From the NCBI GenBank assembly GCA_030737835.1, contig CM060848.1:17585309-17649308 (forward strand): a DNA stretch of 64,000 nt. The letters are read 5' to 3'. Shown here piece after piece: positions 16,681 through 63,766 of the stretch. Source of the stretch: Acorus gramineus. Taxonomy: Eukaryota > Streptophyta > Magnoliopsida > Acorales > Acoraceae. The first letter of the stretch is position 1. Each line of letters begins with the position of its first letter. The position numbers and the translations under genes are program-made. The notes under the pieces are model-generated. The model worked only from the letters and a program-made list of their open reading frames with translations, was not told where the DNA came from and did no database searches.

Positions 16681-17077
16681 AGGGTTTGTGAGGGGTCTTT
16701 GGTTTCGACGAGGAGAAGAAAAAAAAAAAGCCCGAGGAGAGAGAGAGAGGAGGTGAAATGGGATTATATAGGACTTGTAAATAAATCAAAGTAGTGGGGG
16801 TAGGATAGTCTTTTCACGTTGGGACAAAACAACATAATGCGGAGGCGGAAAAAAAAAGTGACATTGAATGAGCTGAAAAATTCAGGGTTTATATACCAAA
16901 AGAGGATAAATTTCAGCAGTTAATTGGGCCTCAACCAAACAGACTTGCAACACAGAAGTGCTGAAAAATTCTGAATTAAGTCTAATAAGTGCTGAATTTC
17001 AGCCGAACCAAACGCAGCCTTAATCTTTTAAAATTAGGATAAATTATTATCAAAACATTAACCGCTTATCAAAATAA

Positions 17078-21170: not shown

Positions 21171-22083
21171 CATGCTAATTTTTATCCCAAAGAAATTCAA
21201 AAAATATTTTGACAAAGGACAAATTTCAAGAGGGTTATAGTTATGTAGAAAATATAATTAATTAGCGTCAATAAGCTATTATATATAATGTCTGAATGGT
21301 TACACATGGAGAGTACATAATCTCAAATTGCACATATTGGAAAAACACAATATAAATGAATAACAATCCAACGGAAAATCATGTATTGTACCTTCTCAGC
21401 CTTTTATTATCATCTTTGCCCTCTGGTAATCTTATCTCTGGCTCTCTCCCTCTCTCTCTCTCTCAGTTTTTTTGAGAGAATTGTAGACAATTTCTATTTC
21501 GATCCAAAACAATAATAAAAAAGATATGTAAAATAATACAAAACATTCAAGAATCAACAAGGGTGGAGAAGGAGATGCTTCGCGTTGATCAAAAACCCTA
21601 GAAAAGGTTTCTATTAGGCTCTCCCAGGTTGTGTTGCTGATGATTCCAGATGCATAATCTCGTATCAGTGTTCGAGTTTTATAAATCACAAGACATATGA
21701 ACATGAAAATGAAATGACGTGAAATAGAAAAAAAAACTTACATTTTCAAAACATCCAATTAAATTTTTTAGGATTTTTTTTTAATAAAAATAAACATTGT
21801 TATTAAATAAAATGTAATAACAACGATTGAAAAGGAGGTGAGAGGAATAGAATAATAAAACAATGAATAAATAAAAAAAGCTATAAGAAAATCACATTCC
21901 CAACAAGAAGACATGAAGCACAATCTAGGTGGACGGGAGCTGCTCGATTCCCCCAAGGCCGAACTTTACTCCTCCAAACCATATAACAAGGATCTCTTGT
22001 TAATCAGAATTGCATACCCTTCTTAAAAAAGAACAAACTAGTTTAAAGAAATGTACTTTTATATATATATATATATATATATA
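21171..22083. other. Intergenic, no gene; (CT)n tract and (TA)n border
   Basis: Contains a (CT)n tract at about 21441-21464 and ends in (TA)n at 22061-22083, into which the foldback structure is set. No coding signal was recognised. Confidence 0.5.
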
Positions 22084-23873: not shown

Positions 23874-26387
23874 TTATTTTCAAGTTATTTTTAGATCTTG
23901 GGTTTTTTAGATTTATTTTCAGGTATTTCAGGTTATTTTAGGTATTTCAGGTTTTTAGATTTATTTTCAGATCTTGGGTTTTTTGAGGTTTTTCATATTT
24001 ATTTTCAAATCTAGGGTTTTTCAGTTTTTTTTTTCAAATCTAAGGTGTTTTAGATTTTTTAGATTTTTTTTCATTGTATAATGGTTCTGAACTTCTGATG
24101 ACTTTCTTAGAGGAGCATAGAAACCTTCATTATTAATCACAAGGGGAAAAATATGGTAGCTTTAAAATATGATATTTGAAAGAAGTATATTTTGTGCATG
24201 TGCATAGTAATGAATATCAGGGATTTTTGTATGATTATTTTTATGGAATGTGCATTTTTTTACTCATGATTCAGGTTTGTTGAGCATTTGACTCACATTT
24301 GGTCTTTATATTCAGTTAAAATGTTTAATGGATTATCAGTCCCTCCTAGTCTTCTTATTAATATGTGCTGGTAGATTTGGTTGAATTGGAATCATGTTGT
24401 CTTTATTGATAAGATAAGTAATGAAATTCAGATTGTAAACAGGGTATGGGCAAATTGGAAGGAATGCAAGACTCAAATATCCATATCACTTTTTCAAGGT
24501 AATGGTATGGGTCCTTTTGTTGAGGATTCTATTAAAGCCAGTTTTGGAAGGTGTCTCATGAAGCTGTGCGTGCACCTGAAGTACTAGCAAAGTTAGCCAG
24601 AAGAAAAAAGAATCACTCAACATACTCAGTTTTCGGCAGATGATACGTTGAGAAGTGTTTTGTATCCTCATCAAAGAGCTTAGATATATGCATAGATGAT
24701 ATTAAAGATGTATACTCTCAGTATGTACATGATGAAGGACCTTAATTTCCCCTTGATCTTTTGTTACATATTATATGCCTCTGATGAGGCCAGTTTTCAC
24801 CAAAAAAAAAAATGTTTAATGGATGAAGACAATGAAATTGTGGAATGATGTTGTTCTATTTGTTCCAAGATCATATTGAAGTGTTCCAGGTGGTTGAGAG
24901 TGCATATCATTAAATCAGATGACTAATAAGTTGTTGAGAGTTCATATCATTAAATCAAATGACTAGGTGGTTGAGAGTGCAAAATGCTTATGTTTTTACA
25001 AATTCTCAGATTCATTCAGAAATGAATGAGCAGATTGTATTTTTATAAGGGCCTGTTTGTGGATAAAAACTCCTTCTACTGATGATGATAGTCAGTATAG
25101 AGGCCTGTTTGTGCCTTCCTTTTGAGAACATTCTAGTATTTTATAGAGGCCTGTATGTGTTAGATGATTTTGATTATTTTATTTGTTGCAAAATTTGAAT
25201 GCATTTTCAGTTTGAACTCTTCAGGTACTCAATGACTTTCCCTGTTGCCCAGGTTTTCATTGTGTTTTTTTTTTTTTTTTTACTATACTTTCTTGTATTA
25301 AGGTGTTAGATTATTATTGGTGCCTTGATTCCTTCCAATGGAAGCATCTCAAATTGATTCACAGGAAAGCTGCAGGTTATGATTTTTATAGACAAGGTGT
25401 GCCCAATCTTTCAGGGACAATTATGCATTTCTGGACATCTACAATAGTTTCAGAAATTGAACCCAATACATGATATCTGCAATAACTCTCCACAACTGCA
25501 AAAGCTAAAGACCTCTTGCTTTACTGAAGGAACTCTCTAAAATAAATAAATAAAAGACAACCAAGACAAGCTCAATTTAAAGAGTGATATCTGAAGGATT
25601 AATATGAATCAATTATTGAAGCACAATACATGTAAACCCACAGCCGGAAAACAACACAAGCACAGTGCATAAAATGCATTGAATATTCAACTTCCCCTAA
25701 CAAACCTTTTCTATCAGATAATTGAGAACTCTTAAATTTCCTTGGCAAATAAAAATAATGACAAACAGAGAGAATAAAGTTGAAGAGAAGAAGAAAAAAA
25801 TTGGGAATATCTATCAAGTCAAAAGCATCCAAGACAAATACTCCAACTACTAATTATCATTGTTTTGGGTTCCTCACTCACAATCCAACCATTACAGCAA
25901 CATTTTAGCTACGAAAACCTGTTCAACAACAACCAATTGAACCATTAAAACAACATTTCAACATGTCTAAAGGCCAAACATTTCACATCGATTTGGAGAC
26001 AACAAGATACTACATGAATAATAAGTTGTTCACAATAAGGCCGTGCAGAAGTTCAAAGCTCTTCTTGCTTTTCCAGTGATCACATGTGCTCATATTTCCA
26101 TGATAGGTAACGACACCTCCAAGCTGATCAACTATCTATACAATCCACAGAGAAAATCATTATGAGCTTAATCATTTAATCAACCAAATCAGCTAGTAGT
26201 AGTTATATCACGTTGATCAACTATCTATACAATCCACAGAGAAAATCATTATGAGCTTAATCATTTAATCAACCAAATCAGCTGGTAGTAGTTATATCAC
26301 GTTGAGAAGAATATACAGATGAATCACATGTATTGTTACCCTTTCACTTACATTGAACTTCAGAGAAGAAGAAAAAACTCTATTCAT
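23874..26387. other. Foldback spacer, no intact gene
   Basis: AT-rich. A direct repeat of the innermost arm segment (TTGGTCTTTATA...TTAATGGATTATCAGTCCCT) lies at 24277-24410. A perfect-looking 89-bp tandem duplication lies at about 26125-26303 (TGATCAACTATCTATACAAT). Short frames (24381-24587) show no domain. Confidence 0.6.
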
Positions 26388-28173
26388 AGACAGCATGATT
26401 CCAATTCAACCAAATCTGCCAGCTCATATTAATAAAGAAGAATAGGAGGGACTGATAATCCATTAAACATTTTAACTGAAATATAAAGACCAAATGTGAT
26501 TCAAATGCTCATACATTTCATAGAATTAGAGTAGTAACATTTTCATTGCAAACAAAAAATAAACATACATTTCATGAACAACACACCCACTAATATTGAT
26601 TACATTAAGGTGCCTAAGCAATCTACACAGGGTTATCTACATATCGCCATGCATCCACAATTTGCAACCCACAATTCAAAATGATTTAAACATATTCAGT
26701 TAAAAAAGAAGAAGAAAATTGCAGTGACATTTATAATGTAACATACATATGAACATGCAAGCATGATCCGAGGAAGTCCATCCACAAATTCTTGTTCCCC
26801 TAATGCCATATCAATGACTTATTTATTCTATGTCACATCAGTAATAGGAAGATGTCACACCTACTCCAGTTTTGGACAAAAATAGACTCCGAATCGATAC
26901 AAACTAGTTATCCAAAAGCCTGAGACATCAAAATCAGGACTTTGCATGATAATGTATGCCTAAATGATACCTTAATAACCACTGTTCGATTAAAATTTAA
27001 ATTACCCAGGCAACAAGTACACCATCAATATCAATATGACATTCATCATATAATCCTTCCAAAATCTCACAAATAACAAAAAACTTACTCTGTAAATTTT
27101 TATTTGTTCTATCCATAACCAACAATTCTAATTTCAGTAGGATTTCAACTACTGATGGGGTGAAAAACAAATCAATCTATTCATTCTATTTCTTGCATAA
27201 ACAATCCCTTAACAGTACTTTTCATGCTTCAATTCAGATTATCAGTCACAGTAATCCAATGTGTATAGTATGCACTTACACCTATTTCTAAATAATGTCA
27301 GGGTGTGCTGCTACCGATCTCCTCATCTACCACCGGCTTCATCTATCAATTTTTTTTTTTTTTTTTGCTTCAAATGCCTTCCTCAATAAGCATATACAAA
27401 GTAAAACAAATCTGAAAAGAGAACTCTAGATCATGAAAGAATATGAAAAAAATCTTATAATTGAAAAAAATCAAATAAAAACCTAGATTTCAAAATAAAT
27501 CTGAAAAAAAAAACTATGACTGAAAAAAATTAAATAAAAACCTAGACCCAAAATAAATATGAAAAGAAAACCCTAGATCTGACCCAAAATCATACAAAAA
27601 CCTAGATTTCAAAATAAATCTGAAAAGAAAAGCCTATGACTGAAAAAAATCAAATAAAAACCTAGACCCAAAATAAATCTGAAAATAAAACCCTAGATCT
27701 GAAAAAAAGCCAGATAAAAACCTACCGTCGAGCACGGGGAGAGGTAGGGGTGGCCGGTGGTCACTGAAAAAAATCAAATAAAAACCTAGACCCAAAATAA
27801 ATCTGAAAATAAAACCCTAGATCTGAAAAAAAGCCAGATAAAAACCTACCGTCGAGCACGGGGAGAGGTAGGGGTGGCCGGTGGTCGTTGAGAACGGGGA
27901 GGGGTGGGGGTGGCCGAGCGGATGAGGCCGCAGTAGGTGGTGCTCCCTCCATTTTTTTTTTTCCTCTGTTGGGTCGAAGAGAAGCTCTGTTGTGTCGAAG
28001 AGAAGAAGAGAAAAATGAGAGGAGAGAGAGAAGGCAACCGGTTTCACCCGGTTTGATTTTTTTTTTTTTAAAACAGTCATTAGCCGTCCGATCGAGAGAG
28101 CACTGATCGGACGACTAAGAGTGCGGGCGCACGATGGACCTGACGACCGCACGACCGCAGGTAATCAATTCCC
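26388..28173 (-). repeat. Foldback right arm
   Basis: Reverse complement of the left arm, including the 124-bp duplication (27639-27886) and the MEGAPPTAASS short frame. The first 110 translated residues differ from the left arm at one position (S for G). Confidence 0.85.
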
Positions 28174-28899
28174 TATATATATATATATATATATATATAA
28201 CATAGTACATTTTACTATCTAATATGCAAATTGCACGTCTTCATTATTTTTTTAAAAAAATCATATATCTTATCTAATGATGTATGTATTTTTTTTTATA
28301 AAAGATGAAGTATATATCACGACGAATTGAATTATATCATTTTTAAAAATATGAAAATTTTGTAATAAGATATATATCTCGTTATAATGAGTATAGGGAC
28401 TAATGATGTATATGGGACTGCATTTGGGTTCGTAAAAAGAATTGACTGTAACACTTAGTCAATTTTACGGTTCAAAACGCAGATTACACATTATTTAATT
28501 TTTTTAAAAATCATATACCTTATTTAATAAGATATGTAATCTAATAAAAGGTGAAGTGTATATTTTAATAAATTGAATGATATCAATATAAAAAAAAAAA
28601 TTCACCATGTATGAATTGAAGGAGTGTAACTGAGCACACGTATGTACAGTTTCTCTTGGACGATGATGATTGGTGGGCTGTCTTTGGGCCGTCTGGGCAG
28701 AATAAACTTCGTTCGATTGTTCGAGCCCATCACAACAATGCACATGAGGTGTGCCCCTCGCTTGATAACAACTGCATGGGACCTTTTTAGACATTTTAAT
28801 GGGTCTTTACCAATAAATAAAAGGAAAATGTTAGTCATGTTTTCAACTTTTCAAGTCTCACATAATATATTTATTTTGTATTCTTTAAATTAATACATC
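28174..28899. other. Intergenic, no gene
   Basis: Starts in (TA)n, then AT-rich DNA with TTATCTAATGATGTATG/CTTATTTAATAAGATATG strings loosely like the TACACTCA MITE family. A GC-richer stretch at 28630-28790 has open frames on both strands but no recognisable domain. Confidence 0.4.
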
Positions 28900-44940: not shown

Positions 44941-46779
44941 AAGACTAAGAGAAAATGTCACGGAGAGTCATTCCTATGGTATTCCAACTTACGTAAAAAA
45001 ATTTACAATAAATTATGTAAATAATTCAAAAAACTTTATTCAGATTTTTATAAAATATTTTTTTTGTCTAATGAAATACACCACATATAATTATCTATAT
45101 AATTATCTATATTTTTCTAATTAAGTGGTTACTTTGAATTATAAGAGAGATAAATATATCTAGATTGAAATACATTTATCATAATTCAGATACACTTTTT
45201 TATAAAATATGAGATATTTGCAAGTACAAACAACCAATAAAATGAATATCTATAATGATTTTAAAATGTACTTGTTTGATTAACTGTTTCTCTTCACATA
45301 GACATCATGAACAATCATGTCCTTTTATATTGAGTGTTATATCCATGTAATTTTCATCTTTTTACATTTTATTTAGATTCAGATACATTTCACATAATTC
45401 AGATATAATTCAATTTTATAAGAAGTATACAATCATCCATAAAAATATGTATTTTAAAAAATAATATATATATATATATATATAATAAATTGAATATATA
45501 TATAATTTATATATATTCTTTCTAGAAAACCAGAACTATAAATTATACCGCATGATTGACTGTTTTATGAAGCCGACCAATAATTTCCATGGGTCCTATC
45601 AAAATGTCACACACAAAGGGTCACCGTACATTATTGACATTTTTTTAATTTTGAAGGGTGTATAGGTAATTTAGACTAGTAGGTGGGCAGGTTCGTAATA
45701 AAGTGACTCATGGTGAGACATTATCGTAATGTACATAGAAGCCCTAAGTCCGGGGTTTGATATTATATATTCGTTGAAGAGAAGAGGCGACTGAAAGAGG
45801 GGGAGGTTCTCATAGAAGGTAAGATGGAGAAGATTTGTAGATTTGTTTTGTTCTCTTTTTCGATTTCAATTCCTTTTTTTATTTTTTGATTCTTATGCTT
45901 TGTGAAATCATTTAGTCTCCGAAAGCCTCTCTCATGGTTGAATCCTTGCCCTTACAACTTTTTTAGGGTTAGGTAATTCCACTGGAATATTTTCATGAGA
46001 GGCGAAAACGAGGAGGATTTTGAGTCGCTTCACCTTTTCTTATGTGGGTGCAGCGAATTATGCCTCCAAAATATTTTGATTGTATGTTGGTTTTCATTGA
46101 TGTCTTTTTATCTTTTATGTTTTAAGGGGTAGGGGTCCAATGATGGCATGAAATCTTTGAGACCTGATGGATTTAACAATCCTTGATGAACATTTACAAG
46201 CAATATTGCTGAGGACCAAAATGTGAACATATGCTTTTAGATTGGCTTTTTAGGGTTTCTTGTTTTGTATGTTAGAGGGTATTTTGAATGATTGATATGA
46301 GATGTGATGAAATGCACTGGGCTCTGAGCAAATTTTTTATTTGCAATTTGATAGAAATGCATTTGCCTAGAAAGCATTCTCTGATCTTAATCAAATCATC
46401 CTCTGTTTTGTTGTTTGTATATATTTCTAGCCAATTTTGCTTTTTAGGTTCAAAATCAATTATTCAAGAGTTTTATTATAAAGTTTATGATTTCACTTGG
46501 CAAACTGAAAAAGGCACAATGTGTTTTTTCTCTGTCAAAAAAATTACATGCACTGTTGATGATGACTAAAAAAATGTATACACAGATTCTTATAAAAAAA
46601 AAAATCGAACAAGAATTCATTTCAAGATGTTATGGTTTCTTTGAAGGAGCATCTAATCCCCCAGGCCCCAACTAATAAATACCCAATCTCAACGACCAAA
46701 ATTTGGTTTGGTTGGTGGGATTGGAAACTCGGGAGGAAGGTGAAGAGAGAGAGACACAGAGTATCTCATGTAGGAAAAA
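44941..46779. other. Intergenic; leader-like segment near 45770, no identified gene
   Basis: At 45765-45830 a purine-rich stretch ends in a donor-like GAAG/GTAAGA and is followed by T-rich DNA, as in a transcribed leader, but no downstream coding exon could be tied to it. (TA)n lies at about 45466-45483. Confidence 0.3.
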
Positions 46780-47045
46780 AGATACACTCAGTTACATTAT
46801 CAACAAAAACTTAGATCTCATATGTTTTTATTTATTTTTTAAATGATAAACACTATCTAATGAGGTATACGCTTTGATAAAAAGTGTATATCGCTTCATT
46901 TCAAATTGAATGAATTCATTTTTAACAAGTGTAAGAAAAAATCATTTAGGTATATACATCATTTAATGAGGTATATGCTTAATTAAATCTAGAACAGGGT
47001 ATATAAAATCTGTGTTTTGGATTGAGTATAAAATTGAGTGTAGCA
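46780..47045. mobile_element. MITE family with TACACTCA ends, copy 3
   Basis: Starts GATACACTCAG and ends TTGAGTGTAGCAG. The interior shares TATCTAATGAGGTATACGCT and AACAAGTGTAAGAAAAAATC with the other two copies. Confidence 0.65.
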
Positions 47046-49790
47046 GCACTCCTCAAGTTATCATGCGGGCCCATGTATTGGAATGCTTCTCCATTCGACT
47101 TTGGGCCGGTGGACCTTTAACAATCCCCTGTTTTGTCATGGGTGACACAACTCAGGACACAACTCGGACGGGTTGTGTTCGGATTGATTTCAGGCTGATC
47201 GAGATTCAAAACATTCAATCTTATTATGATCCAACTCAATTCGATTTACAGCCCAATAATCTTAACTTGAATCTAACTCGTGAAAAAAAAAATCAATTTG
47301 AACTCAACCTGAGGAACCTGATTTTTCAATTTACACACAAAATAAAATTAGAACAAACTATCATATTTTTTTATAAAAAAATTAGACGCATTTTACAGAT
47401 TATTATCGCCCAAGTGAGGAATAATGAAAAATAGAAGCAATTGGAGTCCAATAAAGATAGAAAACATATGAAGTCCACTAATAACATAAGAATTCAAATC
47501 TGAAATGCTCTGAATGTTTATATTTGAAAATGCATCACATCTTGATATCATGTTCCTCTTAGACATATACCTCTTAACCAAAATGGTTTTCAAATTTTTT
47601 TTTATCAGTTTGTGTGGTTTGATTTTTATGTTTACATTAACAATAATCTATTATGATTACATTATGTTTCTTTCTTATATCTCTTTATGAATGATATATT
47701 CCATAATTATTCAGCCATACAGTTTATCTGATTGGTTGAAGTTCTTTGAATAGATATGCTACTTTTACTCACACTGGTCTTAACCTGACAGATTTTATGA
47801 TTGTTATCAATTTAAATGTTTTTCAGTCAATCAATGTACATGAATTTAACATCAAACTTTGCCTCTAAATTATTATTTTAAATTAAATTGCTGTTGTCTT
47901 GATTCAAAGTAATGATTTTTAAGTTGCTCTAATTTTTTTATTCTTAGCTATGGTGACCATATCCGTTTTTTCTTATTCTCGGCCATGACGTTTTCCTTAC
48001 TAAAAAAGTCAATCTTATTTTTGTTGTGGAATTTGAATATAAAACAAAAACAAGATACATTTATATGATGCATTTGTTATCTGATGCTTCCTGTTGGAGT
48101 TTTGAATAATATATCATATAATTTTTTTCGTTTTTATATTTGATAGTTTATTTTATGTTCAGTGAATAGCAGAAAATAAAATTTCGAGGCACTTGTCCAT
48201 CAATTCAATTGGTAGTACATGCGTGCACTGCATTTGAGTTTGTTATGTCACTAGACAGCTCTATTGGAAATCAAGAAGTTTAGTTGACTTTAAATAATAG
48301 CTTGCTGGGTTTCCCCAACTCTTAGATGCTGATGGACTTCAAAATTGCATTGTACTTGATTTAGTTATGGTTTAATTATCTATTGTCGTTGAAAAGAAAT
48401 GCCATCAATTAACTTTTATACATGTGGGATCTTTGAAATTGCTTATTGTATGCATCATTTCGATCTATCACAATAAGATGGATGTTCAAAGTTAGGAACT
48501 TCTAGTCTTTGATTTGCATATTAGAAGCTTAATTATACTGGTTTTTTTTTTCGGTCTTGCATTATTTCTCGGTCATGATGTTCAATATTCCATATTTTAT
48601 CTAATTTGGTTTGCATTTTTTGATGTGTTTTTGTTTTTTTAGATTTTTCTCTTTTCGTGATGGTCGATGACGATGTCGGGATTTTGAGAAAGAAGATAAA
48701 ACACAAGGTACTTTTTTTGCCATCGTCAGATTGGGAAGATGATATGGCCTTGCACCGAGCAATTCATCATTTCTGTTGTCATAAATGTTCATGAATTTAC
48801 AAATACTGGCAGATGTGGAGGGAAGAAGTGTATGTAGTATGTATGGCCTCCTTTATAAGTTAATTTTGACCTGCACATCCTGCAATAATTCTTTGTCATA
48901 AACAGCAGATGGGAGGTCCTTGCCTGACCATAATTGGCATGTCCTTCTCGTCTATCACTTATCCCACCCACCTGATATAAATTTTTAGTATGAGTTGTTC
49001 TATACAAATTGCATAAGATAGCTGATAAAAATTCCATGTTTTGTGGATGATGGGGTACTTAATCTAGAATACACGTATTTAGAATCTTTTATTCGACTAT
49101 TATATCCAATATCCGCTACATCCTTAGTGGAAAGACTGTGAGCGTATTAGCACCCATTGAAATTTGGAGTCGCGGATCTTTTTTTTAAAAAAAATTGTGA
49201 AAAGCTTTGTTTTCATAGGAATATTGGTATACGGTTTTGAGAGGGTTGAAAAATCACTGATGTTGATGTTTTGGTGATCTATTTTTATACTTTTATTTTT
49301 AATCATTTCTACATTGAATCTCTCAAATTTTTTAAAGTGAGACTTTGAATTCTCTTTCCAATATATAAGCTTAAAGGATATATTTGTTTGTTTTTGTGAT
49401 CAATTATTTTTTTCATATTCATTTATTCAATTTTTGAAGCATCATTTTTTTTCTATTTGTTGTGACGGGAATGATGTTATTTCAATATTTTTTCCTAGAT
49501 CTTCTATAAATTATTCTAGAACTAAATACATGAAAAGAAGGTACAATTGTCTTAATTTTGTCTGAACTTATTATATATCTATAATTATTCTTTTTATCTT
49601 TCTCCTCTTGAAACCTTTGTTCGTTCAACAAAGACTAAACAAGGGTGAGAAATAAATTATAGACTATTTGAAGGATCCAAACATCGAACTAAAACTTCCA
49701 TGTCTATAATTCCTGGCTCCGCCCCTGACAAAGATGGAATGATTTTTCCTTCGACCTCAAACATGACTATTCAATTACACTTTTCTGCAG
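47046..49790. other. AT-rich region, no identified gene
   Basis: 47060-47300 has decayed AACCCGA/CAACTCGG strings like the hAT MITE interior. 48645-48712 is a short open segment (MVDDDVGILRKKIKHK) ending in a possible donor AAG/GTACTT. Nothing was assigned with confidence. Confidence 0.3.
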
Positions 49791-49893
49791 CCTCAAGAGT
49801 CAATAGTTGCTAATGGACAATGGCCATATACTTCATTTGATTACAAACATGGAACTGACAATGGAAGGAAAGGATCTTCTTCAGATCGTGAAA
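49791..49893 (+). other. Candidate orphan coding exon
   Basis: 103 bp preceded by a pyrimidine-rich acceptor (TTACACTTTTCTGCAG) and followed by a good donor (GAAA/GTATGT). One frame is open throughout (PQESIVANGQWPYTSFDYKH...), while the other two contain stops. The composition is exon-like against AT-rich flanks. The protein family was not recognised and neighbouring exons were not found; it may be the remnant of a gene. Confidence 0.35.
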
Positions 49894-50068
49894 GTATGTA
49901 TGTAACTTAGGTCATGTGAACATGTGTTGTTTAAACAATGTGATTAGTCATGAACAATTTGAGTTTTCGTTTGAAATGCATTTTTAATATTTATCTGATG
50001 AACTTCTAGGTATATATATTAAAAAAAAAATGTACAACAGTTTGCTACATGACTAATAGGAGGCGTTA

Positions 50069-50305
50069 ATGACTCTCGATTGGATTTGTAGAAATGAGAC
50101 TTTAGTTCATTGTTGGTTTCACTCTAATGTACCTGATTTAGAAAATGGGACGCAGAATATTTTTAAAGCTTTATCACCAGTGAGTGGAGTAGAAAACGAT
50201 ATGCATTTGGTTCTTATGCCTTACACGTACAATGAGACAACTGATATATTAACTCAAAAGAGATTGTTAGCTGACTCCCATAGTAATATAGTATTCCTGT
50301 TTTAG
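50069..50305 (+). other. Open frame of unknown status, 78 codons
   Basis: Reads MTLDWICRNETLVHCWFHSN and onward without a stop in AT-rich DNA, 176 bp after the candidate exon at 49791-49893. No family was recognised. It could be part of the same broken gene or a chance frame. Confidence 0.2.
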
Positions 50306-51588
50306 TCATTGGATAACTTACTGTAATATTTTATTTTAAAATCTCTCCCTTTTCACATATCAGTACATTTGATTCTCCAGCTTATCTCTTCAGGTAGATT
50401 GGAACCCAAGGAATGCTTTATCCATGACATTATAAAGGAATATTTCGAATATTTCTGAATATCGTGGGTGTTTCAATTCTGCCATGGGGTTAAGTGAGGA
50501 GCTTGATTTTCACCATCTAGCATGAGTTGAATTTTTTTGCAAAATAGCAGTTTTCGCCTTGATTTTGACTGATTAAGCTTCTGAATAATTAATTAATAGA
50601 TAAAACTTCTATTCAACTTGAATATGCTTTTGGGTAAACATCTTATTTAAATTCTTTCATCTTCCTGCTCTGTTGTTCACTTTACCTGTAATGTTTGATT
50701 TTGACAATTTTCTAACATGCACTTTAATGTACCATGATGGCGACAAATTTCGCCCAACCGGGCTATTTTTGTTATTTCACCCCTTCAATTCAATTACTCG
50801 GCTCTGTTTTTTTCGTTTGACGATGTCTATGAGTGTGATAACTATTTTTTTTTCAATTAGGGCGATTACTTCTTCATGTGAAGAGGAGCAGACATTTTGG
50901 TGGTAAATTTGGTATCCAACATGGGTAATTAATTTTGTTTGGTTTGCAAGGTGTTACTTTTTTTTTTGGTGATGCTATTTTTTATTTTTGGGGTTTTGCA
51001 AGGTGTTACTGTTGAGCAGAGGTCCGACGATAGGAACTGTGCCATTCAATCTGGCAATGGAGGTGTCCACCGAGTTCCCATTCATGTGGATTCCATTTGT
51101 TTAGTTAGAGTTTTGCTGGCTATCATCTGATTGTGGATTTGCTAAATTTGTTTAATTTAATCTTCTGTTGTTTCAGGTATTGGTGAATTCAATCTGATGC
51201 ATTTGATCTGATATTTATGCTTTAATGCAAAGGTTACATGTGGTATTAATTCGTCATCTTGTTGTTTTCTTTATCTTTATGGCTATGGATTTGATTTTTG
51301 TTCTGCACTTTTTGATGGATCTAATGTATGCAACTATATTGTTCAGCTCAATATCTCTTTATCTGTTATATGGGTTGATCTATTTTAGTTATTTTAACAA
51401 AATGGTTGGAATTAACTAAAAAGAAGAATATTAGTCAATTTATTTTAGTTATTTGGACAAGGATTGGTTTGTTTTATGTGTATGTGACTTATTTGATTGA
51501 GCCTGTTCCGCTAAATAATAGACTCATTGTGTATATTTTATGACAGCCTTCTAACATACTTGAAAATTTAACATACTTGAAAACTATT
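50306..51588. other. AT-rich region 5' of the LINE, no gene
   Basis: No domain-bearing frame was found. GCAAGGTGTTACT is repeated at about 50945 and 50998. Confidence 0.35.
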
Positions 51589-53293
51589 TTGTGCTGTTGT
51601 TCGTGTTGGTTTCGGGGTTGAAGGTTAACTTTAGGAAGAGTTCCATTATCGGGATTAATGTGGATGATCCGCTCCTCAACCGCCTAGTGCCTATACTTTC
51701 CTGTGAAGCTAGGGCCTTCCCTTTGATGCACTTGGGGCTACCTCTTCACGCTGCTCGATTGACAAAAGCTGAATGGGCACCTTTGGTGGGACGGTCTGAG
51801 AGGAGACTGGAAAAGTAAGTTTCTTAGCATGGGGGGGCACCTAATCTTGTTACAGGCTGTGTCGACGAATCTTCCTATTCACTATCTCTCCATTTTTAAA
51901 ATTTCGAAAGGGATCTTAAGTAAATTGGAAGGATTGCTTAGGAAATTCTTTTGGAATGGGGCAAAGGAGTCAAGAAGGCATGTCCACCTGGAAATAGTGT
52001 GTGATAGTAAGGAGAAGGGGGGAGCAGGCCTTCTTAGTATGCATTGTATGAACAGAGCACTCCTGTTGAAGTGGCTTTGGAGATGGAATGCAGCACCGAA
52101 CTTGTGGTGCAGGGTGGTGAGGGAGAGCTATGGATGCCAGGCGCTCTTACGTAGCAGATATCCTCGGATATCAAATCAAACCTCTTGGATGTGGAGGGGT
52201 ATTGTGGTGGAGAAGGAAACATTTACACAGGGGACCAGGTGGGAACTTGGCGATGGACAAACGATTAGATTTTGGCAAGATGTCTGGGTGGGGGATTATC
52301 CCAAGGTCAGATTTCCAGCGATCTTCCAGAGATTTCCAAATACAAACTTGGGGTTGCCATTTTGTTTTGGAGAGAGAGGAGGGGCGAGTGGAGCATCGGT
52401 CATCTTTCTTGGGTTTAGTGATTTTGATGGTTATTGGGTTGTGAAGCTTAATAGAGCAGTGCGGACAGAAGAAGTAAACGAGTATTTGGATCTGCTCGAA
52501 TTGGTGGGACAGTGCGTGATCAGCCATCTCTTGCCGGACAAGGTGGTATGGAAGCCCGGGCCTGCAGCTGGATTTTCGGTCAAAATCGGGTACGACTGGG
52601 TAAGAAAGGAAAGGCATGTTTTGGCTGTTACAGCGCTCAAGCTCAAAGAGATTTGGGGATGCAAAATCCCTCTCAAAGTTAAGGTTTTTGTATGGATTCT
52701 ATATCAAAGGAAGACCTTAACCAAGTCTAGGCTTGCAAGATGGATTCCAGGTCTTGATGCGGTGTGTGGTATGTGTGGGGGAGGAAGAAGAGACGGCGGA
52801 CCACTTATTTTCCTATTGCAGGCTGGTGATTGGGGCGTGGGACAGGTTGAGGGAGGCGACTAGTTTTGTGGTCGATTTCCACAATTTGGAAGGTATGTGG
52901 TTGGCTGGCAAGCAGTTGCGGCGCAGAGGGGACAGATCTTTGCAGGCCAAAGTACGTCAACTATTGGTCCCGCCTTCGTTTGGGTGATGTGGTTGTCGCA
53001 AAACCGGGTGACGTTTCAAGCACAAAGACCATATGCTGAGAACATTGGGGAACTCTGTCAGTCTTTTATTTTAGACTAGGGGAAATACTGTGTGGGTGTG
53101 AGAGAGATTGGTTTTGATGATGGCAAGTTAACATTGCGATCAGGGTCTTAGGGGGGATCGGTGGTCTTTGTTCCCATCTGTCTTTCTTTCTTTACTTTGC
53201 GTTAGTACTTTGCTTACGCTCTTATATATTAAGGTGCTCGTCTATTGTTTCCTTTATAAAAAAAAATAAAAAATAAAAAAATAAAATAAAAAT
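51589..53293 (+). mobile_element. 5'-truncated, frameshifted LINE (L1-type), with A-rich tail
   Basis: Coding similarity begins mid-RT at LLFVLVSGLKVNFRKSS and continues through LGLPLHAARLTKAEW, then KFLSMGGHLILLQAVSTNLP, LLRKFFWNG, GGAGLLSMHCMNRALLLKW, and the zinc segment CGMC + EEETADHLFSYC, ending near SQNRVTFQAQRPYAEN. At least three frame breaks are visible: near 51810 (ERRLEK to KFLSMGG), near 52780 within the C..C...H...C segment, and near 52965. The 3' end is an A-rich tail (AAAAAAAATAAAAAATAAAA) at 53257-53293. The endonuclease and ORF1 are missing, so it is a dead copy. No target duplication was settled. Confidence 0.85.
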
Positions 53294-54840
53294 GTTCGGA
53301 CCTGTTTTCATGTGTCCCATCAATAATTCTGCTCCTCAGCCTCCTCTCTCTGGTGGCACTAAGAAGACAGATAAATAGTGATTTGAAACTTTCAGACAAG
53401 TTTCGTTTGCTCCAATGTCCATTCTGCCAGATGTGCTGGTTGAGCATCATGTTGTGGTTGGATTTTATCATGTTTTGCATTTATCCCCAATTGTTTATCT
53501 GTTTTGCATTTTAAATCGTCTATCTAGTCATGCATTTATCCCCAATTTATCCCCATGTTTTTTTTATGTTTTGATGTGTCCTATTATATTGGATGACCAG
53601 TCTTTGGTTAAAATATTCCTAACTTTTATCAAAATTATAGTATATTCTCACACATTGACTTTGGCCGCTCTGATATATAAAAATTTGAGTGGGGCCTTAG
53701 ACAATTTTTTAAAATAGAGTCCTATAGAAAAAATCTTCTTGTTTAAATACGATTCAATAAATTGTATTTATTTTTTTCAATTCATCTTATATTTTTTTCT
53801 TTTTTTCATATCTACAACTATATTTTTTAGTAGACATATTATAATCAATTCAAAATTCAACACCCTATAATTAAAAGATTTGAAATCAAATTTAAATAAC
53901 AATAAAATCTGATTGTTGGCCTTCTCCAGTTTCACCAACGAATATTTGTATATTGAATATTGAAAGTTCTGTAAAAAAATAAATTTTGATTAGTAAATAG
54001 ATAACGAAAATCTTATATTTTTATTAGAAGTCTTAAAAAAATATGAAAAATTACACCTCAAATAATATGTTTGTTGTCAAATGGGTTATGTATCAAGAAT
54101 TATATACCTTATGGAGATTAATTTGTTGTAAATCTTTTTATTTTAAATCTTAGACTTTGGAATGGTTGAAATTCTAAGAGATTATGAGAGAGAGAGAGAG
54201 AGACTTGGGGGGTAGTGATCGAGAGATAATGAGAGGGAGAGACCTAGGGAGAGAGAGAGATCAATTGGGGTTTGGGGAGAAAAAAACAAACAGTTAGGCT
54301 AATTAAAGATGGTGATTATTTTGTCTATTTACCTTTCTAAAAAGATGGATGTGTCTAATTACAATTTTTTTTTTTTCATTTGGGGCCTTGAATGTGTTAA
54401 ATTTAAAATAGCTAGTTTTCTAGTGTGCCAAGGCAGATTGAGGCCCATAATTTCATAAAACAAGGCATTAAGCATAATAAAATAATATGAGTTGCATTTT
54501 GGCTAGGGTCCTAGGTAAAGCTGTCTACTGGGCCTAAAACCAAGGCCGGGCCTGATTTAATTCTTGTAAGGCTACAACAATATCTGGTAGTGTATCTACA
54601 CATGTTGTGGATGAATTAACTCCTGTTTGGCATTCCTCTTATTTCATAGTGCATTTTGATCTTGGCATTATTTTGTATTGAAAAGGATATCACCTGCATC
54701 CTTTTCTTCAAAAGTCTCAAATGGGATATAAATCTCTCTTAGCAAACAAGGACGGCATCTTCAAAACCGCGTCATTCCATGTAATAGCCAAATTTCATTA
54801 AATGCATTATGCATGTCTGCTATAAATGGTGTTCCAAGCC
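53294..54840. other. Intergenic, no gene; GA-rich tract
   Basis: A (GA)n-rich patch lies at 54184-54262. A GGGCC-containing segment near 54520-54560 may be a decayed MITE. No gene was recognised. Confidence 0.4.
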
Positions 54841-57800
54841 TTGTTTAAAAATTGTACCAAACATATGAAGCACTAAAAAAAATCATTCTTACATATTGCT
54901 TTAACAAGAAAAGAAAACAAAATTTGTTTCCTTATTTATTTTTATTTTTTTGGTAATTAAATCAGTAAAAAAAAGGGACAATTTTTATAATTAACCCCCC
55001 AAAAAAACAAATAGCATGTTTGGTCCCAGTTTATAATAAAAAAATGTCACGTGGGCACGTTGATATGTCAAAAAAAAAAAAAAAACCCAGGGTCAGTTTT
55101 GCATATAAAATGATCCTGCGGCCAAACATGCAATTTTTATTCTATTTGGGGAGGAGGGTTGTGTGTTTGGGGGGTTTTAATTACAAAAATTTTCCAAAAA
55201 AAAATGATAAACTTTGACGTGTAACCGCGTAACATAACCAACAAACAAAAAATGGTATATGTAACATATAGGGTTTGACAAACCCATGTAAAAAAGGGTT
55301 GATTCTTCTTCATTCTTAAACACATTTTTAAGCAACTTATTGTTTTTACTTTAATATAAAAAGAGTAAAACCTTACCCGTAATCTCCAACCCCTTGCATA
55401 TAAATACATTGTTTAAAAATTGTACCAAACATATGAAGCACTAAAAAAATCATTCTTACATATTGCTTTAACAAGAAAAGAAAACAAAATTTGTTCCCTT
55501 ATTTATTTTTATTTTTTTGGTAATTAAATCAGTAAAAAAAAGGGACAATTTTTATAATTAACCCCCAAAAAAACAAATAGCATGTTTGGTCCCAGTTTAT
55601 AATAAAAAATGTCACGTGGGCACGTTGATATGTCAAAAAAAAAAAAAAAAACCCAGGGTCAGTTTTGCATATAAAATGATCCTGGGGCCAAACATGCAAT
55701 TTTTATTCTATTTGGGGAGGAGAGTTGTGTGTTCGGGGGGTTTTAATTATAAAAATTTTTCAAAAAAAAATGATAAACTTTGACAAGTAACCGCGTAACA
55801 TAACCAACAAACAAAAAATGGTATATGTAACATATAGCGTTTGACAAACCCATGTAAAAAAGGGTTGATTCCTCTTCATTCTTAAACACATTTTTGAGCA
55901 ACTTATTGTTTTTACTTTAATATAAAAAGAGTAAAACCTTACCCGTAATCTCCAACCCCTTGCATATAAATACATTGTTTAAAAATTGTACCAAACATAT
56001 GAAGCACTAAAAAAATCATTCTTACATATTGTTTTAACAAGAAAAGAAAACAAAATTTGTTTCCTTATTTATTTTTAATTTTTTGGTAATTAAATCAGTA
56101 AAAAAAAAGGGACAATTTTTATAATTAACCCCCCAAAAAAACAAATAGCATGTTTGGTCCCAGTTTATAATAAAAAAATGTCACGTGGGCAAGTTGATAT
56201 GTCAAAAAAAAAAAAAAAAAAAAACCCAGAGTCAGTTTTGCATATAAAATGATCCTGGGGCCAAACATGCAATTTTTATTCTATTTGGGGAGGAGGGTTG
56301 TGTGTTTGGGGGGTTTTAATTACAAAAATTTTCCAAAAAAAATGATAAACTTTGACGTGTAACCGTATAACCGCGTAACATAACCAACAAACAAAAAATG
56401 GTATATGTAACATATAGGGTTTGACAAACCCATGTAAAAAAGGGTTGATTCCTCTTCATTCTTAAACACATTTTTGGGCAACTTATTGTTTTTACTTTAA
56501 TATAAAAAGAGTAAAACCTTACCCGTAATCTCCAACCCCTTGCATATAAATACATTGTTTAAAAATTGTACCAAACATATGAAGCACTAAAAAAATCATT
56601 CTTACATATTGCTTTAACAAGAAAAGAAAACAAAATTTGTTTCCTTATTTATTTTTATTTTTTTGGTAATTAAATCAGTAAAAAAAAAGGGACAATTTTT
56701 ATAATTAACCCCCAAAAAAACAAATAGCATGTTTGGTCCCAGTTTATAATAAAAAATGTCACGTGGGCACGTTGATATGTCAAAAAAAAAAACAAAAAAA
56801 CCCAGGGTCAGTTTTGCATATAAATTGATCCTGGGGCCAAACATGCAATTTTTATTCTATTTGGGGAGGAGGGTTGTGTGTTTGGGGGGTTTTAATTACA
56901 AAAATTTTCCAAAAAAAAATGATAAACTTTGACGTGTAACCGTATAACCGCATAACATAACCAACAAACAAAAAATGGTATATGTAACATATAGGGGTTG
57001 ACAAACCCATGTAAAAAAGGGTTGATTCCTCTTCATTCTTAAACACATTTTTGGGCAACTTATTGTTTTTACTTTAATATAAAAAGAGTAAAACCTTACC
57101 CGTAATCTCCAACCCCTTGCATATAAATACATTGTTTAAAAATTGTACCAAACATATGAAGCACTAAAAAAATCATTCTTACATATTGCTTTAACAAGAA
57201 AAGAAAACAAAATTTGTTTCCTTATTTATTTTTATTTTTTTGGTAATTAAATCAGTAAAAAAAAGGGACAATTTTTATAATTAACCCCCCCAAAAAAAAA
57301 ATAGCATGTTTGGTCCCAGTTTATAATAAAAAATGTCATGTGGGCACGTTGATATGTCAAAAAAAAAAAAAAAAAAAAACCCAGGGTCAGTTTTGCATAT
57401 AAAATGATCCTGGGGCCAAACATGCAATTTTTATTCTATTTGGGGAGGAGGGTTGTGTGTTTGGGGGGTTTTAATTACAAAAATTTTCCAAAAAAAAATG
57501 ATAAACTTTGACGTGTAACCGTACAACCGCGTAACATAACCAACAAACAAAAAATGGTATATGTAACATATAGGGATTGACAAACCCATGTAAAAAAGGA
57601 TTGATTCCTCTTCATTCTTAAACACATTTTTGGGCAACTTATTGTTTTTACTTTAATATAAAAAGAGTAAAACCTTACCCGTAATCTCCAACCCCTTGCA
57701 TATAAATACATTGTTTAAAAATTGTACCAAACATATGAAGCACTAAAAAAATCATTCTTACATATTGCTTTAACAAGAAAAGAAAACAAAATTTGTTTCC

Positions 57801-60583
57801 TTATTTATTTTTATTTTTTTGGTAATTAAATCAGTAAAAAAAAAGGGACAATTTTTATAATTAACCCCCCCAAAAAAAAAATAGCATGTTTGGTCCCAGT
57901 TTATAATAAAAAATGTCATGTGGGCACGTTGATATGTCAAAAAAAAAAAAAAAAAAAAAACCCAGGGTCAGTTTTGCATATAAAATGATCGTGGGGCCAA
58001 ACATGCAATTTTTATTCTATTTGGGGAGGAGGGTTGTGTGTTTGGGGGGTTTTAATTACAAAAATTTTCCAAAAAAAAATGATAAACTTTGACGTGTAAC
58101 CGTATAACCGCGTAACATAACCAACAAACAAAAAAAGGTATATGTAACATATAGGGGTTGACAAACCCATGTAAAAAAGGGTTGATTCCTCTTCATTCTT
58201 AAACACATTTTTGGGCAACTTATTGTTTTTACTTTAATATAAAAAGAGTAAAACCTTACCCGTAATCTCCAACACCTTGCATATAAATACATTGTTTAAA
58301 AATTGTACCAAACATATGAAGCACTAAAAAAATCATTCTTACATATTGCTTTAACAAGAAAAGAAAACAAAATTTGTTTCCTTATTTATTTTTATTTTTT
58401 TGGTAATTAAATCAGTAAAAAAAAGGGACAATTTTTATAATTAACCCCCCAAAAAAACAAATAGCATGTTTGGTCCCAGTTTATAATAAAAAATGTCACG
58501 TGGGCACGTTGATATGTCAAAAAAAAAAAAAAACCCAGGGTCAGTTTTGCATATAAAATGATCGTGGGGCCAAACATGCAATTTTTATTCTATCTGGGGA
58601 GGAGGGTTGTGTGTTTGGGGGGTTTTAATTACAAAAATTTTCCAAAAAAAAATGATAAACTTTGACGTGTAACCGTATAACCGCGTAACATAACCAACAA
58701 ACAAAAAAAGGTATATGTAACATATAGGGGTTGACAAACCCATGTAAAAAAGGGTTGATTCCTCTTCATTCTTAAACACATTTTTGGGCAACTTATTGTT
58801 TTTACTTTAATATAAAAAGAGTAAAACCTTACCCGTAATCTCCAACACCTTGCATATAAATACATTGTTTAAAAATTGTACCAAACATATGAAGCACTAA
58901 AAAAATCATTCTTACATATTGCTTTAACAAGAAAAGAAAACAAAATTTGTTTCCTTATTTATTTTTATTTTTTTGGTAATTAAATCAGTAAAAAAAAGGG
59001 ACAATTTTTATAATTAACCCCCCAAAAAAACAAATAGCATGTTTGGTCCCAGTTTATAATAAAAAATGTCACGTGGGCACGTTGATATGTCAAAAAAAAA
59101 AAAAAACCCAGGGTCAGTTTTGCATATAAAATGATCGTGGGGCCAAACATGCAATTTTTATTCTATTTGGGGAGGAGGGTTGTGTGTTTGGGGGGTTTTA
59201 ATTACAAAAATTTTCCAAAAAAAAATGATAAACTTTGACGTGTAACCGTATAACCGCGTAACATAACCAACAAACAAAAAAAGGTATATGTAACATATAG
59301 GGGTTGACAAACCCATGTAAAAAAGGGTTGATTCCTCTTCATTCTTAAACACATTTTTGGGCAACTTATTGTTTTTACTTTAATATAAAAAGAGTAAAAC
59401 CTTACCCGTAATCTCCAACACCTTGCATATAAATACATTGTTTAAAAATTGTACCAAACATATGAAGCACTAAAAAAATCATTCTTACATATTGCTTTAA
59501 CAAGAAAAGAAAACAAAATTTGTTTCCTTATTTATTTTTATTTTTTTGGTAATTAAATCAGTAAAAAAAAGGGACAATTTTTATAATTAACCCCCCAAAA
59601 AAACAAATAGCATGTTTGGTCCCAGTTTATAATAAAAAATGTCACGTGGGCACGTTGATATGTCAAAAAAAAAAAAAAACCCAGGGTCAGTTTTGCATAT
59701 AAAATGATCGTGGGGCCAAACATGCAATTTTTATTCTATTTGGGGAGGAGGGTTGTGTGTTTGGGGGGTTTTAATTACAAAAATTTTCCAAAAAAAAATG
59801 ATAAACTTTGACGTGTAACCGTATAACCGCGTAACATAACCAACAAACAAAAAAAGGTATATGTAACATATAGGGGTTGACAAACCCATGTAAAAAAGGG
59901 TTGATTCCTCTTCATTCTTAAACACATTTTTGGGCAACTTATTGTTTTTACTTTAATATAAAAAGAGTAAAACCTTACCCGTAATCTCCAACACCTTGCA
60001 TATAAATACATTGTTTAAAAATTGTACCAAACATATGAAGCACTAAAAAAATCATTCTTACATATTGCTTTAACAAGAAAAGAAAACAAAATTTGTTTCC
60101 TTATTTATTTTTATTTTTTCGATAATTAAATCAGTAAAAAAAAGGGACAATTTTTATAATTAACCCCCCAATTAAACAAATAGCATGTATGGTCCCAGTT
60201 TTTAAGAAAAAATGTCACGTGGGCACGTTGATATGTCAAAAAAAAAAAAAAATCCAGGGTCAGTTTTGTATATAAAATGATCCTGGGGCCAAACATGGAA
60301 TTTTTATTCTATTTGGGGAGGAGGGTTGTGTGTTTGGGGGGTTTTAATTACAAAAATTTTCCAAAAAAAATGATAAACTTTGACGTGTAACCGTGTAACC
60401 GCGTAACATAACCAACAAACAAAAAATGGTATAGGTAACATATAGGGTTTGACAAACCCTTGTAAAAAAGGGTTGATTCCTCTTCATTCTTAAACACATT
60501 TTTGGCAACTTATTGTTTTTACTTTAATCTAAAAAGAGTAAAACCTTACGCGTAATATCCAACCCCTTGCATATAAATACATG
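54841..60583 (+). repeat. Promoter-unit tandem array, about 573 bp x 10
   Basis: Units starting TTGTTTAAAAATTGTACC lie at 54841, 55409, 55975, 56555, 57132, 57711, 58292, 58865, 59438 and 60011 (periods 566-581; the last four exactly 573). Each ends GCATATAAATACAT, which in the final unit is the TATA box of peroxidase copy A, so the unit is that gene's upstream region. Each unit also carries CACGTG (CATGTG in units 5 and 6), a TTTGACGTGT-type element, TTTGACAAAC and A/C/G homopolymer runs. Units 7-9 are almost identical (shared CAACACCTTGC, GATCGTGGGG), showing recent amplification. The repeated short open frames on the minus strand are by-products of the repetition. Confidence 0.95.
60572..60579 (+). 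promoter_or_regulatory. TATA box of peroxidase copy A
   Basis: TATAAATA about 105 bp upstream of the ATG at 60684. The same box closes each of the nine upstream units and occurs before copy B. Confidence 0.6.
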
Positions 60584-60683
60584 CATCCACTAAACATAAA
60601 TCTCCCTCTTTCCCTCTCTTAAACATTTGAAACTAAACATAAATCTCCTTCTTTCCCTCTGTAAACACTTAAAACCTCGTCGA

Positions 60684-61756
60684 ATGATGATGAGTTGGAG
60701 AATATGTTTGTTGATCACTACACTGGTGACGGTCGTCATCTCGTCAGCTTCGTCACTACGCACCGATTTTTACAACATGAGCTGTCCGTCGGCAGAGTCC
60801 ATAGTCAAGACCACCGTTGACGAAGCACTCTCCAGGAATCCAGGTCTAGGATCCGGCCTTATAAGATTGCACTTCCACGACTGCTTCGTTAGGGTGAGAT
60901 CTGTTAAGACTCCATGGTTTTTGTGTCTGTTTGTTTGAAATTAAATCATGGTTTTCTTTTGTTTGAATCGATGGTAGACTCTCTGTTTATTTTTCTCTTT
61001 TCTTTTTAATCAGGGATGTGATGGGTCCGTCCTGATCGATTCAATCGCCCGGAACAAAGCTGAGAAAGAAAGCCCGGCAAATAAACCAAGCCTCTGGGGA
61101 TTTGAGGTCATTGACCTTGCGAAAGCAAGGATTGAAAAGGCCTGTCCGAGAACTGTTTCTTGTGCCGATATCTTTACATTTGCTGCCCGCGACAGCGTAA
61201 CGAGGCTGGGAGGATTTCACTACGCCGTTCCAGCGGGCAGGAGAGATGGGACTGTCTCGTCTATGCTTGAGGTATTGCAGAACCTCCCCAATCCCTTCTC
61301 AAACGTCCAAAACTTGAAAAACCGATTTGGAGTAAAGGGTCTCTCCATGGACGAGATGGTAACTCTATCTGGGGCCCATTCGATTGGAGTCTCCCACTAC
61401 ACTTCGTCCACCCGCCGCCTCTACCCCCGCCAGGACACGTCCATCGACCCCGTCTTCGCGGCGCAGTTGAAGGCAACAAAATGGGTCGAACTCAACAACC
61501 GTCCAACTTGATGTTGTCAGCCCTAACCGGCTTGACAACAGCTACTACAAGAACCTGCAGATCCGACGGGGGCTTGTTCTTCTCGGATCAAATTCTATGG
61601 CATGACCCGGCCACTAAGAATACGGTGGGTGCTTTCGCCAATGACTCCAGGATCTGGGCGGCGAAGTTCGCCGCCGCAATGATCCACATGGGCGCCATCG
61701 AAGTGAAGATAGGGGAGGAAAGGGAAATAAGGAATAATTGTCGGGTGGTCAATTAG
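60684..61756 (+). pseudogene. Class III peroxidase copy A, two frameshifts
   Basis: Exon 1 60684-60893 and exon 2 61014-61511 (GT-AG intron) give 235 aa; the remainder to 61756 is out of frame. Class III peroxidases are secreted haem enzymes oxidising phenolics with H2O2. Residues 1-24 are a signal peptide (MMMSWRICLLITTLVTVVIS...). The distal R61 and H65 (RLHFHDCF), [19 protein letters not shown] and the proximal H192 (LSGAHSIG) are present. At 61475-61483 (ACAAAATGG) the frame breaks where other peroxidases have a Cys-Pro segment; [20 protein letters not shown] continues in the next frame. A five-G run (61568-61572) then shifts again to FFSDQILWHDPATKN and the C-terminus NNCRVVN. A normal protein would be near 325 aa. 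The upstream TTG-started extension is 5' UTR. Confidence 0.85.
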
Positions 61757-62382: not shown

Positions 62383-62403
62383 GGGGGGGGGGGGGGGGGG
62401 GGG
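62383..62403 (+). repeat. Homopolymer run of 21 G
   Basis: An uninterrupted G-run at the junction where the copy B promoter sequence begins (GTTGTGGGTTTGGGCGG). It matches the shorter G-rich GGGGAGGAGGG segment of the array unit. Its length may be unreliable. Confidence 0.85.
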
Positions 62404-62579
62404 TTGTGGGTTTGGGCGGTTTTAATTACAAAAAATGGTATCTAACATATAGGGTTTGACGAACCCATGTAAAAAAGGGTTGATTCCTCTCCATTCCTAA
62501 ACACATTTTTGGGCAACTTATTGTTTTTACTTTAATCTAAAAAGAGTAAAACCTTACGCGTAATCTCCAACCCCTTGCA

Positions 62580-62587
62580 TATAAATA
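62580..62587 (+). promoter_or_regulatory. TATA box of peroxidase copy B
   Basis: TATAAATA 104 bp upstream of the ATG at 62692. Upstream similarity to the array unit extends only to about 62404 and has a gap of about 70 bp that removes the GACGTGT-type element. Confidence 0.6.
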
Positions 62588-62691
62588 CATGCATCCACTA
62601 AACATAAATCTCCCTCTTTCCCTCTCTTAAACATTTGAAACTAAACATAAATCTCCTTCTTTTCCTCTGTAAACACTTAAACCCTCGTCGA

Positions 62692-63766
62692 ATGATGATG
62701 AGTTGGAGAATATGTTTGTTGATCACTACACTGGTGACGGTCGTCATCTCGTCAGCTTCGTCACTACGCACCGATTTTTACAACATGAGCTGTCCGTCGG
62801 CAGAGTCCATAGTCAAGACCACCGTTGACGAAGCACTCTCCAGGAATCCAGGTCTAGGATCCGGCCTTATAAGATTGCACTTCCACGACTGCTTCGTTAG
62901 GGTGAGATCTGTTAAGACTCCATGGTTTTTGTGTCTGTTTGTTTGAAATTAAATCATGGTTTTCTTTTGTTTGAATCGATGGTAGACTCTGTTTATTTTT
63001 CTTTCTTTTTTCTTTTTAATCAGGGATGTGATGGGTCCGTCCTGATCGATTCAACCGCCCGGAACAAAGCTGAGAAAGAAAGCCCGGCAAATAAACCAAG
63101 CCTCTGGGGATTTGAGGTCATTGACCTTGCGAAAGCAAGGATTGGAAAGGTCTGTCCGAGAACTGTTTCTTGTGCTAATATCTTTACATTTGCTGCCCGC
63201 GACAGCGTAACGAGACTGGGAGGATTTCACTACGTCGTTCCAGCGGGCAGGAGAGATGGGACTGTCTCGTCTATGCTTGAGGTATTGCAGAACCTCCCCA
63301 ATCCCTTCTCAAACGTCCAAAACTTGAAAAACCGATTTGGAGTAAAGGGTCTCTCCATGGACGAGATGGTAACTCTATCTGGGGCCCATTCGATTGGAGT
63401 CTCCCACTACACTTTGTCCACCCGCCGCCTCTACCCCCGCCAGGACACGTCCATCGACCCCGTCTTCGCGGCGCAGTTGAAGGCAACAAAATGGGTCGAA
63501 CTCAACAACCGTCCAACTTGAGGTTGTCAGCCCTAACCGGCTTGACAACAGCTACTACAAGAACCTGCAGATCCGACGGGGGCTTGTTCTTCTCGGATCA
63601 AATTCTATGGCATGACCCGGCCACTAAGAATACGGTGGGTGCTTTCGCCAATGACTCCAGGATCTGGGCGGCGAAGTTCGCCGCCGCAATGATCCACATG
63701 GGCGCCATCGAAGTGAAGATAGGGGAGGAAAGGGAAATAAGGAATAATTGTCGGGTGGTCAATTAG
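62692..63766 (+). pseudogene. Class III peroxidase copy B, same two frameshifts
   Basis: Exon 1 62692-62901 and exon 2 63024-63521 encode 235 aa; the out-of-frame remainder ends at 63766. It lies 2,008 bp from copy A and is nearly identical, including the ACAAAATGG break (63485-63493) and the five-G run (63578-63582). The signal peptide, RLHFHDCF and LSGAHSIG are kept. Differences include [14 protein letters not shown] for [14 protein letters not shown] (the buried Asp of SCADI is now Asn), YVV for YAV, and TLST for TSST. The shared lesions mean inactivation came before the duplication. A functional C-terminally truncated product is unlikely, since the second half of the haem-binding domain is missing. 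Confidence 0.85.

Follow-up and report, generated by a model that had tools for sequence, protein, structure and literature searches.

Within a 64,000-nucleotide stretch of the Acorus gramineus genome, hereafter the window (C2:17585309-17649308, contig CM060848.1 of assembly GCA_030737835.1; 398.6 Mb in 137 contigs), we found at positions 54841-60583 an array of ten head-to-tail units, each 566-581 bp long, whose last member is the immediate 5' region of a peroxidase gene copy (gene A). The array is real, and we consider it somewhat probable that it represents a local tandem amplification of the 573-bp 5' region within a decaying tandem cluster of peroxidase pseudogenes, which would have proceeded by duplication and then by unequal crossing-over, without a selected function. 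Positions below refer to the window unless C2 coordinates are given.

All ten units are on the plus strand: unit 1 at 54841-55408 (568 bp), unit 2 at 55409-55974 (566 bp), unit 3 at 55975-56554 (580 bp), unit 4 at 56555-57131 (577 bp), unit 5 at 57132-57710 (579 bp), unit 6 at 57711-58291 (581 bp), and four units of 573 bp each, namely unit 7 at 58292-58864, unit 8 at 58865-59437, unit 9 at 59438-60010 and unit 10, the 5' region of gene A, at 60011-60583. Pairwise identity among them (gaps ignored) was 95.7-100%, far above chance. Units 1-9 were 97.2-100% identical to one another, units 8 and 9 being the same throughout, and unit 10 was the most diverged, with 95.7-96.8% identity to the other nine. 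Variable columns numbered 45 across the ten units, 16 of them private to unit 10; at two positions, unit 10 shared with ten other gene promoters a base that differed in units 1-9. The description, in an earlier note on this DNA, of a ten-unit array with units of about 573 bp was thus exact, down to the coordinates. The array was missing from the Tandem Repeats Finder listing, in which the longest period was 500.

The 3' end of the unit corresponds to the proximal 5' region of the peroxidase, and the TATA box of gene A (TATAAATA, 60572-60579, plus strand) lies 112 bp before the ATG at 60684. As the same note had claimed, a TATA-type box was present in every unit (TATAAATA, 10/10) and a G-box in most of them (CACGTG, 8/10), with CATGTG in its place in units 5 and 6. 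The TTTGAC-type elements that it also listed were found on the plus strand of all ten units, followed by G or A; their reading as a strict W-box, TTGAC[C/T], is ruled out by its absence from all ten units in a scan of both strands. The looser motif [C/T]TGAC[C/T], a form of the W-box printed as (T/C)TGAC(T/C) in the available text of PMC6480313, occurred once per unit on the minus strand, through which each unit may offer a WRKY site.

We searched the whole genome with unit 10 (query 60001-60583) and obtained ten full-unit matches, all at C2:17640149-17645891; these searches score the best candidates only, and unit counts are therefore lower bounds. The final 165 bp of the unit recurred at 91-95% identity in front of ten further copies or fragments of the peroxidase gene nearby, beside short pieces of the outer promoter (unit positions ~292-356). 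With the first 420 bp of the unit as query, the same ten places were recovered together with five short matches at gene copies and five short reverse matches within the array; C4 gave a single match, of 68 bp. In the 800-bp stretches upstream of the other copies and fragments, CACGTG was found in 0/10 and TATAAATA in 9/10. A dispersed satellite is ruled out, since full units occurred at this locus only in the candidate-limited genome searches, and the note was right that this is no anonymous satellite. A megablast of unit 10 against a plasmid collection gave no match, as expected for plant DNA.

The gene following the array is a class III peroxidase, whose exon-2 frame, the part used for the Pfam comparison, matched PF00141 with an E value of 3.7e-53 over profile positions 22-181 of 237. 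Its position directly downstream of the last unit, which ends at the gene's own TATA box, was as first described; the gene itself proved to be frameshifted. Exon 1 (60684-60893, plus strand, 70 codons) and exon 2 (61014-61511, plus strand, 165 codons) are open for 235 codons up to an early stop, the frame being lost after an 8-bp deletion shared with the next copy, gene B, and a full peroxidase is impossible. The remaining C-terminal region (61512-61756, plus strand) is out of frame and includes a frameshift common to all aligned copies; about 60 final residues are out of frame, the C-terminal half is not complete in frame, and a tyrosine replaces the cysteine of the SHC motif.

Decay extends to the whole cluster. 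Ten full or nearly full copies of a 2-kb tandem gene repeat are arranged in two groups, a left group of six (C1g0-C1g5, C2:17482.8-17494.4 kb), the first of which is without its 5' part, and a right group of four (A-D, C2:17645.9-17653.8 kb). Our alignment comprised these ten copies; three 5' gene fragments lying among them (227 bp in two cases, 172 bp in the third) and other peroxidase matches, 67-68% alike, were kept apart. All ten copies carried both the frameshift, which lies at a run of G in exon 2, and the tyrosine in place of the SHC cysteine. A C3 paralogue (both exons) and a C7 paralogue (exon 2 examined) were open to the end and had kept the cysteine, in a comparison that included the solved peroxidase 4usc. 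Further frame-breaking changes were found in six of the ten copies: the 8-bp deletion in A and B, which lies ahead of the shared frameshift, a one-base deletion in C, a 4-bp deletion and a stop in D, and a stop each in C1g1 and C1g5. In C1g0, exon 2 is open to its end (237 codons) by virtue of a 30-bp deletion, with the middle out of frame and exon 1 absent.

Pooled over 45 non-independent pairs, the ratio of nonsynonymous to synonymous differences (pN/pS) was 0.64 overall, 0.72 and 0.97 in two segments of exon 2 that precede the shared frameshift, and 0.88 after it. Mean pairwise difference was 2.8% in the 5' untranslated region, 2.3% in exon 1, 0.72% in the intron and 3.1% in the 3' flank, and for exon 2 it was 2.4% ahead of the frameshift and 1.7% beyond it; the exons up to the frameshift (2.3-2.4%) have thus diverged more between copies than the intron. 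By these measures, the peroxidase copies are under relaxed constraint.

The joint between units (..AAATACA|TTGTTT..), at which one base, a T, fits equally on both sides, links sequence just 3' of the TATA box with the sequence that follows ..CCAAGCC in the left flank. In a first tandem duplication, a position immediately 3' of the TATA box would have been linked to one about 570 bp upstream, with 1 bp shared. Unequal crossing-over would then have raised the outer unit to nine copies and left the inner one, unit 10, with the gene; the latest multiplication would have involved units 7-9. The likeness of units 1-9, the identity of units 8 and 9 and the separate standing of unit 10 argue for such an expansion beside a fixed end, and we infer unequal crossing-over as its mechanism. 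The array would be a passenger of a duplication-prone pseudogene cluster and is probably neutral.

Several observations weigh against this reading. TATAAATA has been kept in all units and CACGTG in 8/10, although such retention is expected without selection because divergence among the units is so low. Three of the ten copies (C1g2, C1g3 and C1g4) have no frame-breaking change beyond the shared frameshift and read 199 exon-2 codons; exon 1 of C1g4 has an in-frame loss of 18 bp. The product predicted for these three copies, ~260-270 residues, is short and may matter. Moreover, the pooled pN/pS of exon 1 was only 0.31, a hint of older selection in that exon.

The same contig carries another version of this region, from which the array is missing. 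Exactly 10,000 N occupy C2:17575309-17585308, ending one base before the window; base 1 of the window aligns to C2:17445980, and position 17575308, immediately left of the N run, pairs with 17704846, with a 94% match over 2.5 kb nearby. About 129.3 kb to the left of the N run thus correspond to 119.5 kb to its right, with homology flush with both edges. Same-strand blocks of at least 400 bp in one collinear chain, followed as far as C2:17695000, gave 20 blocks with 80,943 aligned columns and 1,027 mismatches (1.28%), one block, at 92.0%, being possibly paralogous; array-internal pairs and matches below 150 bp were left out of the self-comparison. Flush homology on both sides speaks for a scaffold gap at the N run rather than a masked stretch of sequence, and the two stretches are probably two haplotypes laid end to end, because flush edges arise without coincidence from two overlapping contigs. 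A true large tandem segmental duplication with a contig break at its joint is less likely, as the assembly would have had to break exactly there. Diverged near-copies that follow one another on a single scaffold, separated by a gap, resemble the heterotype false duplications described in the available text of PMC9516828 and PMC8081667, in which these are told by read depth and k-mers; here alignment alone was used.

The left-hand, probably allelic version lacks the 14,281 bp at 46689-60969, and with them the entire array together with the 5' portion of gene A: its match to window position 46688 is joined directly to peroxidase intron 1, with 4 bp (AATC) in common. Because the gene is cut within its intron, loss of the array from the left version by deletion is the best reading of this structure. 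Unit 10 differs from units 1-9 by 3.2-4.3%, which exceeds the 1.28% divergence of the two versions, and for this reason the first promoter duplication probably predates their parting, a timing that gene conversion could blur.

Each unit further contains an inverted-repeat segment resembling a miniature inverted-repeat transposable element (MITE), which carries the CACGTG. In unit 10 it occupies 60145-60362 (~218 bp), with arms of ~35 bp at 60145-60179 and 60326-60362, complementary in two runs at 84% and 83%; it thus has the terminal inverted repeats and the small size of a MITE. An open search recovered a relative on C4 that corresponds to the inner part of the segment and, on the opposite strand, to its initial 58 bp. 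Allowing up to three mismatches, we counted 103 genome-wide matches to the end pattern, of which at least 11 fall inside the array; the reversed control gave 43. Five further loci chosen by this pattern aligned over the end only (three, 28-42 bp) or remained unaligned at E 0.001 (two). Both flanks are A runs, in which a target-site duplication is indistinguishable from low complexity. The segment likely belongs to an old MITE-like family.

Among the alternatives, the one that survives best is that the array acts as a silencing nucleus, its repeats, with their ten TATA boxes, being transcribed into small interfering RNAs (siRNAs) that would act in trans on the pseudogene cluster through the shared proximal 165 bp. 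We regard this as unlikely, although its probability is not negligible. The model comes from maize b1, where, according to the accessible text of PMC3798267, seven tandem 853-bp repeats at a unique genomic place, several of which are needed, give rise to siRNAs. As in that account, the Acorus repeats are several hundred base pairs long, arranged head to tail at a single place (ten of 573 bp), with regulatory content and with probable alleles that vary in repeat number, an array-less version of the region being present. Targets would be offered by the proximal 165 bp, which ten other gene promoters share at 91-95% identity, and the inverted-repeat segment within the unit also fits. In contrast, the b1 repeats described there are separated by ~100 kb from a regulator gene downstream of them, and both siRNAs and silencing have been demonstrated for them, whereas the repeats reported here abut a broken peroxidase and are known from sequence alone. 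The putative targets, moreover, are already frameshifted genes. Variable positions were not significantly enriched at CG sites (4/14, versus 21/157 other C/G positions; Fisher p = 0.13), nor were C-to-T or G-to-A changes (3/14 versus 13/157; p = 0.13), and the units thus give no significant CpG-deamination sign of past methylation. The strongest form of the analogy, a natural b1-like epigenetic element with ten repeats on one haplotype and none on the other that would silence the peroxidase cluster in trans through the 165 bp, strikes us as very improbable.

The earlier note had seen in the array a multiplied promoter or enhancer, which would raise the expression of peroxidase A or give tandem start sites. 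That the unit derives from a peroxidase 5' region stands; a working function found no support, and we hold it to be less probable than silencing. The gene's own TATA region in 10/10 units, the G-box in 8/10 and the single minus-strand [C/T]TGAC[C/T] site in each would suit such a role, and there are precedents in the parts of the literature available to us. In the wheat TaALMT1 promoter, duplicated or triplicated repeats accompany high expression (PMC6480313, as far as its available text goes), and head-to-tail copies of a segment from the gene's own 5' region are likewise met here; that text deals with two or three repeats, whereas the Acorus array has ten copies, and the gene behind it is disabled. 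Auto-activation of apple MYB10 is stronger when a promoter motif is present in more copies (available text of PMC5671642), and the R6 minisatellite, in the accessible portions of PMC5671642 and PMC11321683, is similarly a cis-element repeated in the gene's own promoter. The R6 motif is described there as bound by the gene's own product; the repeated element here is a 573-bp segment with a TATA box. Our literature search aimed at peroxidase promoter arrays found no paper on one. Against a working promoter, gene A, with its 235 codons and early stop, is unable to encode a full peroxidase and has lost the SHC cysteine, still present in two paralogues; frameshifts also affect the other nine copies in the alignment. 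The strict W-box is missing from every unit, the other copies retain only the proximal 165 bp and short outer pieces, with CACGTG in none of the ten other upstream stretches, the G-box lies within the MITE-like inverted repeat, and the probable second haplotype does without the array.

Finally, that the copy number, or the array itself, is an assembly error is very doubtful: the 10,000 N right before the window, the 129-kb overlap across them and the identity of units 8 and 9 could suggest it, but the window is free of N, the array begins 54.8 kb from the N run, and the 45 differing columns hold shared and private changes that a stuttering assembler would not invent.

The region holds several other features. 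A 3.8-kb insertion at 13258-17019, with ends GGCTGCGTTTGGTTCGGC and a TTA target duplication, has an empty site in the left version; we take it to resemble a PIF/Harbinger-type element. A 6.1-kb insertion, placed at 22084-28173 in the comparison of the two versions and lying within 22049-28212, is also absent from the left version; it sits inside a TA repeat, has inverted repeats of ~1.8 kb that are 98.6% alike and ends in GGGAATTGATTACCTGC, and looks like a DNA transposon with long terminal inverted repeats. Inside the stretch missing on the left, an open frame at 51763-52863 with a zf-RVT domain (PF13966) probably represents the remains of a retroelement. Domains recognised in the window include peroxidase, raffinose synthase and GDSL lipase, a gene content that suggests a flowering plant. 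Gene B, the tandem copy ~2 kb past gene A (62692-63521, plus strand; exon 1 at 62692-62901, exon 2 from 63024 to an early stop at 63521), has a shortened promoter of which the proximal ~165 bp remain at 62428-62591 (plus strand), with an extra 42-bp outer piece at 62393-62434; a run of 21 G occupies 62383-62403 in the shortened spacer before the gene, where most of the outer promoter has been lost. A second tandem cluster, of ~4.5-kb units in about five copies with 98-99% identity, lies at C2:17525056-17546331, ~30 kb from the left-hand peroxidase copies.

Because two haplotypes probably stand in tandem here, peroxidase copy numbers counted in this region are likely inflated. Plants can alter or silence genes by way of tandem promoter repeats, among other routes, and a ten-unit array beside an array-less version would make a clean test bed for this. 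Were the b1-like interpretation true, the locus would provide an independent example of silencing that depends on repeats, with the array-less allele as its internal control.

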